Shown here: positions 5,881-12,344 of the stretch, in pieces
How positions within the stretch are numbered: position 1 is the first letter of the stretch
Layout of the letters: each line of letters starts with the position of its first letter
Assembly: GCA_026398615.1 (NCBI GenBank)
Contig: JAPLSN010000010.1
Location: 1 to 54,672, forward strand
Direction of reading: 5' to 3'
DNA from: Spirochaetota bacterium
Lineage (GTDB): Bacteria; Spirochaetota; Spirochaetia; Treponematales; UBA12059
DNA: 54,672 nucleotides
The notes under the pieces: generated by a model
Databases searched by the model: none
What the model was told of the DNA's origin: nothing
What the model saw: only the letters and a program-made list of their open reading frames with translations
Made by a program: the position numbers and the translations under genes

Positions 5881-6216
5881 TCAATGCTTGCGTTTTTCGA
5901 CCACGGTAACACCCGCCAGCACGAGCATGCGCTTGAAGGCCGAACCTGGTTTCTTGAGCTCGCGGCTACCCCGCGTGATCTTGCAGAGGCTCAACCTGAG
6001 ACGCCTCGCGATCTCCCGCTGGGGCAAGCCGCTGGCCAGGTCCTTGACCAGGGCCCAGCGCTTGGCGATTTCGTCCGCTTCCGACTTGGTAAAAATGCTG
6101 TAGAGGAAATTCTCAATCAGCAGGGGATCGTCCACCTTGGCGATGACCGTCGACATCTCGGTAAAATTCCGAGTTACGATTTCCTGATCGATCTCCGTAT
6201 CTTTCATCAGTAACAT
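5881..6216 (-). CDS. TrpR-like transcriptional repressor
   Basis: A 111-residue all-helical protein of the TrpR family. The helix-turn-helix covers LPQREIARRLRLSLCKITRGS (about residues 64-84); ITRGS is also present at the same place in E. coli TrpR. It is divergent from an ABC substrate-binding lipoprotein gene, an arrangement known for TrpR-controlled amino-acid or tryptophan uptake genes, so it probably represses that transporter when its corepressor is bound. An in-frame ATG three codons in (MKDTEI) has a TATTAT hexamer 7 bases before it, so the true start could be 6207. Confidence 0.8.
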   Translation of the reverse strand: MLLMKDTEIDQEIVTRNFTEMSTVIAKVDDPLLIENFLYSIFTKSEADEIAKRWALVKDLASGLPQREIARRLRLSLCKITRGSRELKKPGSAFKRMLVLAGVTVVEKRKH

Positions 6217-6269
6217 AATATCGTTTCCATTGAACAGAGGCTACTGGCAATATCATGGAAAAGTGGATT

Positions 6270-6299
6270 TTAACTTTACGGAACGTTTCTGTGTATGTT
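6270..6299 (+). promoter_or_regulatory. Candidate promoter of the ABC lipoprotein gene with a TrpR-like half site
   Basis: TTAACT (6270-6275), an 18-base spacer and TATGTT (6294-6299). The bases GTTAGTAC (6297-6304) run off the -10 and resemble half of a trp operator (ACTAGTAC). A second similar element, GTAAGTAC, lies about 30 bases downstream. The half sites are not a full palindrome, so the operator is a guess from context. Confidence 0.3.
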
Positions 6300-6401
6300 A
6301 GTACCCTGTTTGTTGTTTCTTTCAGTAAGTACAACCAGCTTCATATCCCACATTCGCGGGTGGCGGATGTGGATACACCCTGGGGAATACCGGAGGTCCG
6401 C

Positions 6402-7397
6402 ATGAAACGTATCCCAATCGCCTTCGCCACAGGCGCCATCGTGCTGGCTTTTTCCATTTTCGCAGCGGGCTGCGCCAAGCCCGCTCCCGTCGTCATCGTC
6501 GGCGTGGCGAAATTCGTGTCCCATCCAGCCCTCGACGCCCTCGAAAAGGGCGTCATCGAGTCGATCAAGGCCGCCAAGCCGGGTATCGCCCTGGATCTCC
6601 AGAACTCCAACGCCGACATGGGCACAGCCGCGCAGATCGCGCGCCGCTTCGCCGACGAAAAAGTGGCCGTCGCCGTGGGTATCGCCACGCCGACGGCGCA
6701 GGCCCTGGCCAACGCCATCAAGACCATCCCCGTCGTCTACTGCGCCGTGACCGATCCCGTGGCCGCAGGCCTCGTCGCCTCCCTCGACAAGGGCGGACCC
6801 AACATCACGGGCAGCTCGGACATGACCCCGCTCAACGAGCAGCTCGACCTCCTCATCAGGCTCAAGCCGATCAAGCGCCTCGGCCACGTGTACAACGCGG
6901 GCGAGGCCAATTCCTCCCGGATCGCGGAACTCGTGAAGGAATACTGCGCGGTGAAGGGCATCGAATTCGTGGGTGCCACCGTGGCCAACTCCTCGGAAGT
7001 GAAGCAGGCGGCGCTTTCCATAGCCGATCGCGTCGACGGCATCTACCTTTCCACGGACAACACGGTCTTTTCGGCCATCGATGCCGTCGCCGAAGTCGCG
7101 CTCGAAAGGAAACTGCCGGTCATCACCGCCGACCCGAGTTCGGCCGAAACCGTCCCCGTGCTGGGAGCGCTGGGCTACGACTACTACGCGATGGGGCTGG
7201 CGACCGGGAAAATCGTCGTGAAAATCCTGGATGGCGCGAAAACCACGGATATCCCCGCCTATATCCCGAGCGATCCGAAGGAAATGCTCCTCGTGCTCAA
7301 CCTCGACGTCGCCGCGAAGATCGGGATCGCGATCCCGAAGGAACTCGCCGACCGCGCGGCCATCCTCGTGGAAAACGGCGCGATCCGCAGGAAATAG
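6402..7397 (+). CDS. ABC transporter substrate-binding lipoprotein (TrpX-like family)
   Basis: A 331-residue lipoprotein. The signal peptide ends in the lipobox FAAGC with the acylated cysteine at residue 24. The mature part has the two-lobed periplasmic-binding-protein fold of the family that includes tryptophan- and tyrosine-linked substrate-binding proteins. The ATG at 6402 was chosen because GGAGG precedes it and the signal peptide starts there; a longer frame from 6255 has none of this. It should capture an amino acid or related compound for the permease that starts four bases later. The divergent TrpR-like gene supports tryptophan as the ligand, but this is inferred. Confidence 0.85.
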   Translation: MKRIPIAFATGAIVLAFSIFAAGCAKPAPVVIVGVAKFVSHPALDALEKGVIESIKAAKPGIALDLQNSNADMGTAAQIARRFADEKVAVAVGIATPTAQALANAIKTIPVVYCAVTDPVAAGLVASLDKGGPNITGSSDMTPLNEQLDLLIRLKPIKRLGHVYNAGEANSSRIAELVKEYCAVKGIEFVGATVANSSEVKQAALSIADRVDGIYLSTDNTVFSAIDAVAEVALERKLPVITADPSSAETVPVLGALGYDYYAMGLATGKIVVKILDGAKTTDIPAYIPSDPKEMLLVLNLDVAAKIGIAIPKELADRAAILVENGAIRRK

Positions 7398-7400
7398 CCG

Positions 7401-7600
7401 ATGTTCGAATCGGTGCTCGTCGAGGGCCTGGTCTACGGACTCATGGCCCTCGGCATATTCGTCTCCTTCAGGGTCCTCGATTCCCCCGACCTCACCCCCG
7501 GAGGATCCTTTCCCTTCGGGGTGGCCATGGCGTCGTCCATGATCGTCGCGGGAGTCCATCCCGTGCCCGCACCCGTCGCGGCCTTCCTGACGCCCGGTCT
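7401..7600 (+). pseudogene. Truncated ABC permease (N-terminal fragment)
   Basis: The frame begins MFESVLVEGLVYGLMALGI, a typical start for the inner-membrane permease paired with this class of lipoprotein. About 65 residues, with two hydrophobic stretches, look genuine. After roughly 7590-7605 the reading becomes Arg/Pro-rich nonsense, although the frame stays open to 7742, because the DNA is now the antisense of the opposing hydrolase gene. Most of the permease and the expected ATPase gene are absent. Either a deletion or rearrangement has joined two loci, or this is an assembly join. Confidence 0.75.
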
Positions 7601-8613
7601 AACGGGCCGGCAGTCTTCACGCCGGCGAAGAACGCCGCGTCGTCGTCCAGGGCCTTCAGGAAACTTTTCGACAGGTTGTGATCTTCCCCCTCGTAGCGTT
7701 CGAAGCGGAACACGACTCCCGCCTCCGCGAGTTTTTCCGTGAACGGTCCGCTCCACTCGAAAGGAACGGAATCGTCGGCAGTCCCGTGGCGGATCACGAG
7801 CGGCACGGTGATCCGGGCCAGGTTGTCGATGGGTGACAGCGAAGGGTACGTTTCCGGCCCTATCTCAAGCGCGAGAGCCTGCTCCTGGTTTTTCGCCCCC
7901 TCGGGATCGCGCTTTCTCATGTAGTGCAGGGTGTTTTCCGGGAACTGCGCCGTGACGCCCGCCCAGATCGAAGCGGCCTTGATCACCTTCGACGTCTCCA
8001 GGACGCGCAACGCCAGCTCGCCCCCCATGCTGTGGCCGAACAGGAACACGCGCGACATGTCCGCGCCGGTCAGCAGGGACAGGTCCGCGACGAGGTTGAG
8101 GACATCGATCGTGTAGTCGATCGTCCTGAACGATCCTACGGCGGCTCCTTCCGATGTTCCGTGGCCCCGGTAGTCGGGCTTGACGACGAGGTAGCCGTTC
8201 CGCGCGAACCTGGAGCTGACGCGGATGTACGACTCCTCGGTCGAATAGGCATTCGGGGGGATGTGGCCGTGCGCGACGATGACGACCGGGAAGCCGCCGG
8301 GCTGGGGATCGCGGTCCGGAGACTGGACGAGGGCGCGGAGGCGCAAACCTTCGCTGTCGTACGCGATCACCTTCGTCCTGGCTCCCCTGACGAGTCCCAG
8401 GTCCCGCAGCGTTTCGGGAGCCTTGCCGGAACCGTACGCCCGTTTTGAAAGGGCTTCGATGGAGTACGGGTGGGGTGCGGGCGCCACGGCTATCGGCGTC
8501 GCGGGAAGCGCAGCTTCGAGCGACCTGTCCGGCCGCGAACAGGAAAGCGGAGCGCCCGTCGACAGGAGCGCCAATATCGAAACAACCGTATGGAGCGATC
8601 GTAAATGCTTCAT
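7492..8613 (-). CDS. Secreted alpha/beta hydrolase lipoprotein with aberrant C-terminal tail
   Basis: An alpha/beta hydrolase of the dienelactone-hydrolase/prolyl-oligopeptidase type. The nucleophile elbow is GHSMGG, the acid is probably in GTADDSVP, and the histidine is in GEDHN. The N-terminus is a lipoprotein signal ending APLSC. All catalytic elements lie upstream of the junction near 7600. The last 35 or so codons, to the stop at 7492, are antisense to the truncated permease and are not native. The enzyme may still fold. The substrate is unknown. There is no Shine-Dalgarno sequence; a promoter ends 6 bases before the ATG, suggesting a leaderless mRNA. Confidence 0.8.
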   Translation of the reverse strand: MKHLRSLHTVVSILALLSTGAPLSCSRPDRSLEAALPATPIAVAPAPHPYSIEALSKRAYGSGKAPETLRDLGLVRGARTKVIAYDSEGLRLRALVQSPDRDPQPGGFPVVIVAHGHIPPNAYSTEESYIRVSSRFARNGYLVVKPDYRGHGTSEGAAVGSFRTIDYTIDVLNLVADLSLLTGADMSRVFLFGHSMGGELALRVLETSKVIKAASIWAGVTAQFPENTLHYMRKRDPEGAKNQEQALALEIGPETYPSLSPIDNLARITVPLVIRHGTADDSVPFEWSGPFTEKLAEAGVVFRFERYEGEDHNLSKSFLKALDDDAAFFAGVKTAGPLDRASGRPRRVRARDGLPRRSWTTPWPPRRERILRG

Positions 8614-8758: not shown

Positions 8759-8804
8759 GCAAACGAAATCCGGATCGGGTTGAAACGGCGTGGAGGTTGC
8801 TATC

Positions 8805-9224
8805 GTGGACGAAACCTTGGTGCGAACCTCCGTGGAGGCGAAAGCCGATTTCGAATTTTCGCGCTCCGGAGGACCCGGGGGACAGAACGTCAACAAGGTG
8901 AACACCAGGGTCACCATCCGCGTATCGCTTCAGGATCTGGACGGCCTTTCGGACGCCGAGCGCGCGCGTGTCGCCGAAAAACTTGAGTCCCGCATCGCCG
9001 CCGGGCGGATCGCGGTGTCGGTCTCCGAGGAGCGCACCCAGGAAGCCAACCGCCGCCGGGCGGTGGACCGGATCGAGACCCTGGTCATCGCGGCGGCCCG
9101 CATCCCGAAACGCCGGAAGGCTACCAAGCCTTCACGCGCCTCAAAGGAGCGAAGGCTCGCCGAGAAGAGGTCGAAGTCCGCGATCAAGCGCGGCCGCAAC
9201 GACCGGGCGCATCCCGAAGACTGA
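8805..9224 (+). CDS. arfB: ArfB-type alternative ribosome-rescue peptidyl-tRNA hydrolase
   Basis: A 139-residue protein with the class I release-factor catalytic GGQ at residues 25-27 (SGGPGGQNVNK) and a highly basic C-terminal tail (KRRKATK, KRSKSAIKRGR). Both are hallmarks of ArfB/YaeJ, which enters stalled ribosomes lacking a stop codon and hydrolyses the peptidyl-tRNA. The GTG at 8805 is preferred because GGAGGT lies 7 bases upstream; an in-frame GTG at 8790 is the longer alternative. It ends at a strong hairpin shared with the convergent DEAD-box-like gene. Confidence 0.92.
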   Translation: MDETLVRTSVEAKADFEFSRSGGPGGQNVNKVNTRVTIRVSLQDLDGLSDAERARVAEKLESRIAAGRIAVSVSEERTQEANRRRAVDRIETLVIAAARIPKRRKATKPSRASKERRLAEKRSKSAIKRGRNDRAHPED

Positions 9225-9312: not shown

Positions 9313-11484
9313 TTATTTTTTTTTACCGAACATTCCGAGAATCCGGCCCATGATTCCGCCTTTCTTCCCTTCGCGGGCGGGAGGATTTTCCTTCCGGACC
9401 GGCGGCCGTTGCTGCCGCTGCGCTCCCTCGTTCCTGCCGCCGTTGTCCTGCTTCGCGCCATCCTGGGGTTTCCCGCCTCCGCGCCGGCGGCGGCCGCCCC
9501 TGCGGTTGCCCGATGTGCCTGCCGGCCTGGGCTCGGAACCGGCTTCCGGACGACTGTCGAACCTGGCTTCGGAACGCCGTTCCTGCTTCCGCTCGGGTTG
9601 CCGTGCTTCCTGCTGCCGGACGGCGGGTTTGCCGTTTTGGACCGGCGTATCCGTCCTGGTTCCGCCTTCGTCCCGACGGCCGCGGCGACCGCGTTTCCGC
9701 CGCTTCTTGTCCTCTTCCCTCTTGTCCTCTTCCTGGACCATCTTCTTGCCGTACTTTTCCCGGTAGAGCTTCATCCGCTCTTCCATTGAGACGGCGTATG
9801 GGTCGGAAAGGGGCTTGGTATCGCGGTCGGAGACGCCGCGCGCCTGCTTGGGGCTTTTCCGCTTCCGTTCCCCGCGGTCGCTCCGGTCGCCGCGCTCGGA
9901 TTTTTCCTGCCTGCCTGAGGGCGTTTCGGGTCGTTCCCGCTTCGGGTTTGAAAAGGCGCCCGCTACCATGTCGATGCTGCCGCCCGTGGCTTCGGCGATC
10001 CCGTTGCGGATACGGTCCAGTCGTTGTGCGTCGGCAACCGCGTCGCGGTGATAGTCGTTCCGGCCGCCGTGCTCCCGGCGCTGCCGGCCCGGACCCTCCG
10101 GCCTCGACACGTCGCGCTGCTGGCGATTCCTGTCGTTCGCGTCGATGCGGTTGCCGTCCACGTCGCCTTCGGAATCGCGGGGTTTCAGGCTGCCGCGGAT
10201 TTCTGGCCTGAGCCCGGTCCGTTCGCCGGGACGTCCGGGCCGATCGTTCCTGCCGCCTCGAACATCGCGGATCGGTCTTCCCTCGCGTCCGTCCCGGGGA
10301 CGCCCGTCGCGCTGAGGCCGTCCGCCCTGGACTACCGGGCGTTTCCGCTCGAACACCATGCCCGAGCTCTTGTCGACGGGAGCGAACAGCGCCTCGTCCA
10401 CCTGGACCGCGTCCATGGATGTCCCCATGATCTGCTCGATCGCGGGAATGCCGTACACGTAACGGTCGCAGGCGAAGTTGACGATCCTCCCCGAATCCTT
10501 GTCCACGAGTTCGATCCGGGTGAGGTAGTTTTCTCCCTCGAGGGGAATGTCGTAGTTGATGAGAAGGGCGCAGAAACCCGCTTCGATGCCCTCGGCGCCC
10601 TCGTCGGTCAGGACCAGTACATCGAGTTCCCCGCGCTTCAGCCGGTCGACGATCACCGACTTCCTCTGTCCCGGCATGTTCCCGATGATGTACTCGCTCC
10701 TGAGTCCGTTCATCTCGAAGCGTTTGGCCGTCTCGTCGGCGGAATCCTTGAGGTTGCAGAAGACGCAGACGGGTCTCAGGTTCTCCCGGGTCATGATCCC
10801 GAGGGCGAGCCTGAGCTTCGCGTCGCTCGAGACATACCAGGTGGTCTGGGGAACCTGGCGGGCCCGTTCCGACTCGGCTTCGAGGAAGATCTCGGACGGA
10901 TTGTCTGCGATCTCGAAGGCGAAGCTCCGTTCCTTGGGACCCAGCAGGGACGAGAACAGCACCGTCCGCCGTTCCGCGGGGGGCGGGAGGAAGCCGCGAA
11001 GGACCTGCGCGCTGGGCATGAGGGCGGGCTCGGTCATTCGGTCGACGCCGTCGATGGCGACGAAGCCGAAATCGCCAAGCGAAAAGGTGTCCGACTCGTG
11101 GCGGAGGAGCAGGGAATCGAGCGAGCCTATGACGAGGGACGCCGAGCCGTCCGCGGTGTCGGGCTCCCTGCCGACCGTCCGCATGGTAATGCCGCAGGCC
11201 GCGGCGAGCGGGGCGGCGGCGCGTTCGACGGACGCTATATCCTTGTCCGCGGGCACGATGACGAGCGCGCGGCGACCGGCCCCCTCGTCCAGGAGCCATT
11301 GCATGGCGGGTACGAGGAAAGCGGCCGGCCTTCCTTCGCCCAACTTGACCTGGGCGCTGACGTTTTCACGCGCGCCGATGAGGCGCCCGATGGTCATTTC
11401 GATAAAAGGCGCGTAAGCCGATAACCCGGCCTCGCCGGCGCCGCGCACGAGATTTTCGTGCAAACCCAATTCGTGGAGATCCAT
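9313..11484 (-). CDS. DEAD-box-like protein with degenerate helicase motifs and a long basic tail
   Basis: A 723-residue protein. Residues 1-350 or so follow the order of a DEAD-box RNA helicase core, but the catalytic motifs are altered. The P-loop reads GEGRP (residues 49-53; no lysine), motif II reads DGVD (145-148) instead of DEAD, SAT is SSL, and HRIGRTGR is replaced by TRIELVDKDSGR. Motifs of the second lobe that shape the fold remain (VFCNLKDSADE, LINYDIP). The C-terminal half is low complexity, rich in Arg, Gly, Glu and Lys, and ends MFGKKK, as in RNA-binding tails. It is probably an ATPase-dead RNA-binding scaffold. The start at 11484 was chosen because similarity begins there; longer frames run into untypical sequence. 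Confidence 0.75.
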   Translation of the reverse strand: MDLHELGLHENLVRGAGEAGLSAYAPFIEMTIGRLIGARENVSAQVKLGEGRPAAFLVPAMQWLLDEGAGRRALVIVPADKDIASVERAAAPLAAACGITMRTVGREPDTADGSASLVIGSLDSLLLRHESDTFSLGDFGFVAIDGVDRMTEPALMPSAQVLRGFLPPPAERRTVLFSSLLGPKERSFAFEIADNPSEIFLEAESERARQVPQTTWYVSSDAKLRLALGIMTRENLRPVCVFCNLKDSADETAKRFEMNGLRSEYIIGNMPGQRKSVIVDRLKRGELDVLVLTDEGAEGIEAGFCALLINYDIPLEGENYLTRIELVDKDSGRIVNFACDRYVYGIPAIEQIMGTSMDAVQVDEALFAPVDKSSGMVFERKRPVVQGGRPQRDGRPRDGREGRPIRDVRGGRNDRPGRPGERTGLRPEIRGSLKPRDSEGDVDGNRIDANDRNRQQRDVSRPEGPGRQRREHGGRNDYHRDAVADAQRLDRIRNGIAEATGGSIDMVAGAFSNPKRERPETPSGRQEKSERGDRSDRGERKRKSPKQARGVSDRDTKPLSDPYAVSMEERMKLYREKYGKKMVQEEDKREEDKKRRKRGRRGRRDEGGTRTDTPVQNGKPAVRQQEARQPERKQERRSEARFDSRPEAGSEPRPAGTSGNRRGGRRRRGGGKPQDGAKQDNGGRNEGAQRQQRPPVRKENPPAREGKKGGIMGRILGMFGKKK

Positions 11485-12344
11485 CTCTTCTCTCGCTTTC
11501 GCTGAGATCCGTGCGGACGAAAAAGTCCGCAGGTGCGAATCGCCCTGCACGCAGGCAGTCATCAAGGCTGCCGGGCGGCGATTTCGCATGTCATTCTGCC
11601 TGTCATACAGGGTGCATAAAACAGAGATTTCCCGACGGCCCGTTACGGAAGCCGGATCCGCGCGCGGCATGGATGCGGGATCGTTCGTTGTTCCGTCGGA
11701 AGAGGCCTGCGCCGAGGCCTCGCGGGCGCGGTACACTCCGTCGCGTCCGGTCCAGGTTGCGATTGGCGGCCCGTCATCGATTCGCGGGCGGCCGTCCGTT
11801 GCGATAGCGCGGTACACTTTCCGGAGCCGTCCGACGGGCATACGCCGTAGTCGCGTCCGGGGTCCGCGGTTCGCGCGCCGTTCTTCGGGCGCGTCCGTTT
11901 CGGGCGCGGCGTGTCCGACCCTTCCGCCCGTCCGCTTCGCGTGGGCGATCAAGGGAAATCCGCGCGGCCCGATCGCCATCGAAGGCTTATCGGTGCGTAA
12001 ACTCTTTCGGAACCGGGCCGAAACCGGGATTCCGCTCCGTTATCCGGTCGGAACGGAACAGGATCGCGTCTCAGGCGATCCGGGAAAGCGTGACGGGTTA
12101 AAGAGAGTCGGGAAAGCGGTCGTTCACGGAGCCGCTCCATCCATCGCGTCATCTGCTCTCGTCAATATCCTAGCATGGTTCAGGTAAGGCTGTATATATG
12201 AATATTTCCTTCGGGGTTTCATGAAATTCCAACAAAACGGATCTTATATATAATATCTGTAATATATCATTCCTGCATGATGCTTGACTAAATCACGGAA
12301 AGCCAAGAAAATAAGGGCATTCAACCTATCCGGAGGACGGCCTC
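11485..12344. other. Long gene-free region between divergent genes, with an AT-rich block
   Basis: No convincing gene lies in these 860 bases. Open frames on both strands are Arg/Pro-rich and lack ribosome sites. Two related stretches beginning GCGGTACACT occur near 11734 and 11809. Bases about 12165-12300 are strikingly AT-rich for this genome and include TATAAT (12249-12254), TTGACT (12284-12289) and the palindrome TTTCATGAAA, so this is probably the promoter area of the NADH dehydrogenase gene. The rest could be a long 5' leader of the DEAD-box-like gene. Confidence 0.5.

Follow-up and report, generated by a model that had tools for sequence, protein, structure and literature searches.

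A helicase-derived protein without DEAD-box catalytic motifs, and of RhlB-like origin, is very probably a clade-wide pseudohelicase in one order of spirochetes

The minus strand of the window, by which we mean the whole 54,672-nucleotide stretch of DNA analyzed, carries a gene whose product joins a core of DEAD-box layout to a long basic tail (Table 1). Translation was assigned to the ATG at position 11484, since homologs begin at the matching site; a second in-frame ATG lies upstream at 11979, but the homolog starts favor 11484. Convergent with this gene is an ArfB ribosome-rescue hydrolase gene (positions 8790 to 9224, plus strand; NF006718, above cut-off). The window protein matches the Pfam models Helicase_C (43 bits, E = 6e-11) and DEAD (26.4 bits, barely above the cut-off of 26). 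The top NCBIfam models for both this protein and an active paralog in the same genome are RhlB models, although the window protein does not reach the RhlB equivalog cut-off (131 versus 588 bits), and, among proteins of solved structure, it is closest in sequence to DEAD-box helicases such as Dhh1, CshA, and eIF4A. Chance resemblance or a wrong reading frame was rejected on the basis of these Pfam and NCBIfam matches and of the fold predicted by AlphaFold.

Table 1. Features of the window protein and its gene (positions in the window; aa, residues of the protein)
Feature	Position	Strand	Remarks
Very probable DEAD-box pseudohelicase gene, from the RhlB-like family	9313..11484	-	723 aa
RecA-like lobe 1, aa 1-205	10870..11484	-	Q, I, Ia, Ib, II, and III positions all degenerate; predicted, pLDDT >90
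Former Walker A/motif I, LGEGRPA, aa 47-53	11326..11346	-	R in 32/39 pseudohelicases, K in 0/39
Former motif II, IDGVDR, aa 144-149	11038..11055	-	E of DEAD kept in 1/39
RecA-like lobe 2, aa 206-372	10369..10869	-	Pseudohelicase-specific FCNL, LTDEGA, and NYDIPLExExYxxR conserved
Basic, largely disordered R/G-rich tail, aa 373-723	9316..10368	-	Net charge +40 over aa 371-723
Short tail helix, aa 481-500, RIRNGIAEATGG	9985..10044	-	In many pseudohelicases, almost absent from active relatives
Tail helix, aa 567-597, with MEERMKLYREKYG	9694..9786	-	Common to active RhlB-like relatives
C-terminal peptide GGIMGRILGMFGKKK, with short helix 711-718	9316..9360	-	Common to active relatives

An AlphaFold model of residues 1 to 400, built from a 38-sequence alignment, has a mean pLDDT of 93.4 and consists of two RecA-like lobes in the DEAD-box order. 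Only DEAD-box helicases figure among the top PDB matches of this predicted core (Z up to 29), in agreement with the core order and layout proposed in the preliminary description. Whole-chain rmsd values to these matches are large, about 8 to 18 Å, which we interpret as the modeled lobes standing at a different angle to each other, while the single-lobe structures 3ber and 2pl3 fit lobe 1 at 2.0 Å over 200 residues. The same core layout is found in the RhlB and CshA types, which are the bacterial DEAD-box degradosome helicases; unlike them, however, the window protein and its relatives have lost the residues of the Q motif, Walker A, DEAD, and the arginine fingers. In the window protein LGEGRP stands for GxGKT, DGVD for DEAD, and SSL for SAT, exactly as first described, and HRxGRxxR is missing, the motif VI position reading TRIELVDK. 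The rest of the protein contains neither a canonical P-loop nor a DEAD motif; hidden canonical motifs, the finding that had been named as fatal to the idea of a lost ATPase, can thus be rejected.

We found 41 homologs of this type, all in two families (f1 and f4) of one spirochete order, where they form a single clade. Its support is 100/100 in a careful tree of 51 sequences (22 pseudohelicases), and its SH-aLRT value is 100 in a quick tree of 79 sequences (38 pseudohelicases). The sequences inspected from families f2, f3, and f5 are canonical without exception, as are all 14 of the class-level matches inspected outside the order, and the organism titles of the matching contigs are those of spirochete metagenome-assembled genomes (MAGs). 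In two loci (L061 and L062), what looked like additional cluster members upstream of the gene proved to be out-of-frame ORFs. When compared with the other DEAD-box paralogs of the genome, the clade groups with RhlB-like sequences at 100% support, and it shares a tail motif with them. The pseudohelicase is therefore a product of duplication within the RhlB-like DEAD-box family of these spirochetes, as far as sequence comparison can establish descent. The careful tree places the duplication inside families f1 and f4 (94/100), while AU tests leave a branching of the pseudohelicases outside f1 and f4 unrejected (p = 0.53 and 0.48). In genus g17 the pseudohelicase sits on a very long stem (1.98 changes per column in the quick tree) and its motif V region is altered (LVVSNDNLE), as if it had been released into yet another role.

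The preliminary description had advised looking for an active paralog elsewhere in the genome, and one is indeed present: a canonical RhlB-like gene (locus L002, G000:C9:36311-37498), which encodes the full set of canonical motifs and a tail of the same plan and whose product is 34% identical to the pseudohelicase. The tail had been described as a gain. Active relatives carry a tail of similar R+G content and positive charge (median lengths of 216 and 242 residues versus 235 in pseudohelicases), as well as the same EERxxLYxxKYG helix, which was found in 36/36 pseudohelicases, 23 of 25 canonical sequences of the order, and 10 of 14 of the wider class. The tail was thus inherited rather than gained, and, judging by these shared peptides, the ancestor of the RhlB-like family in these spirochetes already had it. 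In the full-length AlphaFold model it is of low confidence except for three helices (residues 481 to 500, 567 to 597, and 711 to 718), which coincide with conserved peptides. The first of these sets the two groups apart: a RIRNGIAEATGG-like motif occurs in 21 of 36 pseudohelicases, versus 1 of 25 and 0 of 14 canonical sequences (1/39 in total). A scan of GTDB genome contigs with the EERxxLYxxKYG peptide returned 157 stretches, 83 of which encode family members, nearly all from spirochetes. EER[LM]xLY[RK]EKYG and C-terminal GLLxxLxxLFGKK-like peptides are common to canonical and pseudo RhlB-like spirochete proteins, and the same tail peptides were seen in single MAG contigs labeled Aminicenantes (L129) and Acidobacteria (L140). 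The C-terminal 45 residues were considered as a candidate membrane-targeting helix; their hydrophobic moment is mostly no better than that of shuffled sequences.

This shared architecture raises the possibility of a dedicated regulator, which would use the common tail helices to compete with the active RhlB-like enzyme for the same partner, or to dimerize with it there, and so tune RNA unwinding or decay. Both proteins possess an ExKSxGM linker, the R/G-rich tail, the EERxxLYxxKYG helix, and the C-terminal peptide, and most f1 genomes with a pseudohelicase also encode the active enzyme. Canonical orthologs were sought across 149 genomes of the order, in which they show at least 52% identity to the paralog while the next matches reach at most 42%. 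Nine f4 genomes (G030, G033, G036, G044, G050, G053, G062, G077, and G083) have a pseudohelicase, yet no canonical RhlB-like ortholog was found in them; all are at least 91% complete and belong to one sublineage of related genomes (g17, g20, and allies), so that the absence may reflect a single loss. The loci that keep the pseudohelicase under these circumstances are L059, L060, L170, L171, L173, L174, and L176 to L180 (f4, g17, g20). Since one f4 sublineage does without the paralog, the pseudohelicase cannot be an obligate subunit of it everywhere, although it may be a subunit where both exist. We therefore regard a dedicated regulator as unlikely, if the most serious of the alternatives to the scaffold proposed below.

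The degenerate motifs are conserved as degenerate throughout the clade. Motifs were scored in 39 pseudohelicases, the two further relatives being fragments without lobe 1, and in 44 canonical sequences of the same alignment, all 44 of which retain the Q, Walker A (K and T), DEAD, and motif VI residues. As motifs I and II served to sort sequences into the two groups, the counts for these motifs are partly circular, whereas those for motifs Q, III, and VI are independent. The Q-motif glutamine is present in none of the 39 pseudohelicases, the Walker A threonine has been lost, and so have most of the arginine fingers. Motif VI, called unrecognizable at the outset, has not vanished entirely: its first arginine is the sole residue kept throughout (39/39). 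The motif split coincides with the fully supported clade of the tree, with no intermediates among the scored sequences. On the evidence of the sequences, the ATP-binding and hydrolysis residues were lost in the ancestor of the clade, in one evolutionary event. Because GxGKT, DEAD, and the HRxGRxxR arginine fingers are all lacking, these proteins should not be annotated as active DEAD-box helicases. The RNA-contact arginines of motifs Ia and Ib in lobe 1 are mostly lost as well, which makes RNA binding of the canonical kind by the core unlikely.

A protein that binds nucleotide but does not hydrolyze it, acting as a nucleotide-sensing RNA clamp, might be suspected from the arginine that replaces the Walker A lysine in most members, a conservative and retained exchange. 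The remaining seven, however, have G, T, S, or L at this position, and the losses of the Q-motif glutamine, the Walker A threonine, and the arginine fingers also speak against a nucleotide clamp, which we consider improbable.

The gene is under selection. NG86 dN/dS ratios between close species are 0.16 to 0.36 for lobe 1 in six of seven pairs (the seventh gives 0.54, at a dS of only 0.17) and 0.09 to 0.27 for lobe 2; those of the active paralog are 0.04 to 0.17 and 0.015 to 0.11, respectively. The ratios indicate purifying selection on the pseudohelicase that is weaker than that on the enzyme. Members of both families share as gene neighbors a divergent pyridine-nucleotide oxidoreductase and a polyprenyl synthase, with an alpha-glucan phosphorylase-like gene beyond them in several members, and the copies look orthologous because of this conserved neighborhood; in the g5 and g9 genera the neighbors differ on one side. 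The conserved neighbors are metabolic genes only, none RNA-related, and offer no clue to function. The low dN/dS of the core and the syntenic locus argue for a selected protein rather than a decaying gene. Decay on the way to loss is scarcely credible and is rejected for the clade as a whole: the core does evolve several times faster than that of the active paralog, and the gene is apparently absent from some genomes (G002, G005, G011, and G012 in f1; G025 and G059 in f4), but against decay stand reading frames that are intact in about 40 species, a dN/dS far below 1, conserved motifs peculiar to the clade, and the conserved locus. With a conserved predicted fold, lost catalytic residues, and a selected gene, the clade protein has the attributes of a pseudoenzyme and is very probably a pseudohelicase. 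The initial suggestion of a helicase-derived protein without ATPase motifs is borne out by the clade-wide loss, the retained predicted fold, purifying selection, and the active paralog in the same genome.

Constraint has moved to the second lobe, according to the sequence comparison. In 15 genomes that contain both proteins, the pseudohelicases average 33% pairwise identity over lobe 1 and 49% over lobe 2, and the corresponding values for the active enzyme are 80% and 79%. The lobe 2 signatures FCNL, LTDEGA, and NYDIPLExExYxxR are new, and most are still visible in members at 22 to 30% identity. Such greater constraint, together with new signatures, is what would be expected if lobe 2 became an interaction surface.

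We propose that the pseudohelicase acts independently of ATP as a scaffold, a role that we favor moderately. Its disordered basic R/G-rich tail would hold RNA with little specificity, while the former motor face of lobe 2 would serve as a new conserved surface, formed by the three signatures, on which protein partners dock; the short tail helices could provide further docking sites. An RNA-binding scaffold, the role suggested originally, is plausible in view of the inherited, largely disordered tail and the selected lobe 2, the only grounds for RNA binding by the tail being its charge and composition. The partner would most likely belong to the machinery for RNA decay or processing served by the RhlB-like enzyme, although the RNA-decay setting itself is tentative. 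Since RNase Y is present in the genome and a search of it for RNase E/G found none, an RNase Y-type assembly would be the likeliest setting. For the combined picture of a vertically inherited, clade-wide bacterial DEAD-box pseudohelicase, whose lobe 2 was rebuilt as a docking surface, which outlived and possibly replaced its active parent in one sublineage, and which works as an ATP-independent RNA scaffold, the arguments seem to us evenly balanced.

Pseudohelicases are a very thin class, for which the open-access literature searched names one DEAD-box example, Utp25, and one bacterial example, PriA. Utp25 has been called the first fully validated pseudohelicase, the PriA of Deinococcus radiodurans being the only earlier proposal (PMC9539457). 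Like the spirochete protein, Utp25/Def has a predicted two-lobe DEAD-box fold in which the motifs are vestigial, lacks functional DEAD and ATPase motifs, and bears a disordered extension; a scaffold or helicase-cofactor role has been proposed for it, and it is thought to have arisen by duplication and divergence (PMC9539457). It differs in being a eukaryotic, nucleolar component of the SSU processome with N-terminal disorder, essential in yeast (PMC9539457), whereas the spirochete protein is bacterial, of RhlB-like origin, and extended at its C terminus; no common pseudohelicase descent is implied. D. radiodurans PriA (PMC4504706) is likewise a bacterial helicase with degenerate motifs, and it has been summarized as showing negligible ATPase and unwinding activity together with binding of nucleic acid and a helicase partner (PMC9539457); it is, however, a DNA replication-restart helicase of another family and not a DEAD-box RNA helicase. 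A bacterial DEAD-box pseudohelicase was not found in the open-access papers searched, which is weak evidence given that scope, but it accords with the remark that none was familiar in spirochetes. With dozens of orthologs, an active paralog, and lineages that have one without the other, the role of a helicase after loss of its motor becomes directly testable. There is also a warning here, in that some genes of these genomes that score as DEAD-box helicases probably do not encode enzymes.

Elsewhere in the window, inspection by eye revealed a TrpR-like regulator (5881 to 6216, minus strand), an ABC-type substrate-binding protein (6255 to 7397, plus strand), and a permease-like ORF starting at 7401 (plus strand), whose permease-like sequence seems to be lost some 70 residues in, where the opposite strand carries an alpha/beta-hydrolase gene (7492 to 8613, minus strand). 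The segment from 5881 to 8613 looks like a truncated tryptophan-type transporter operon.
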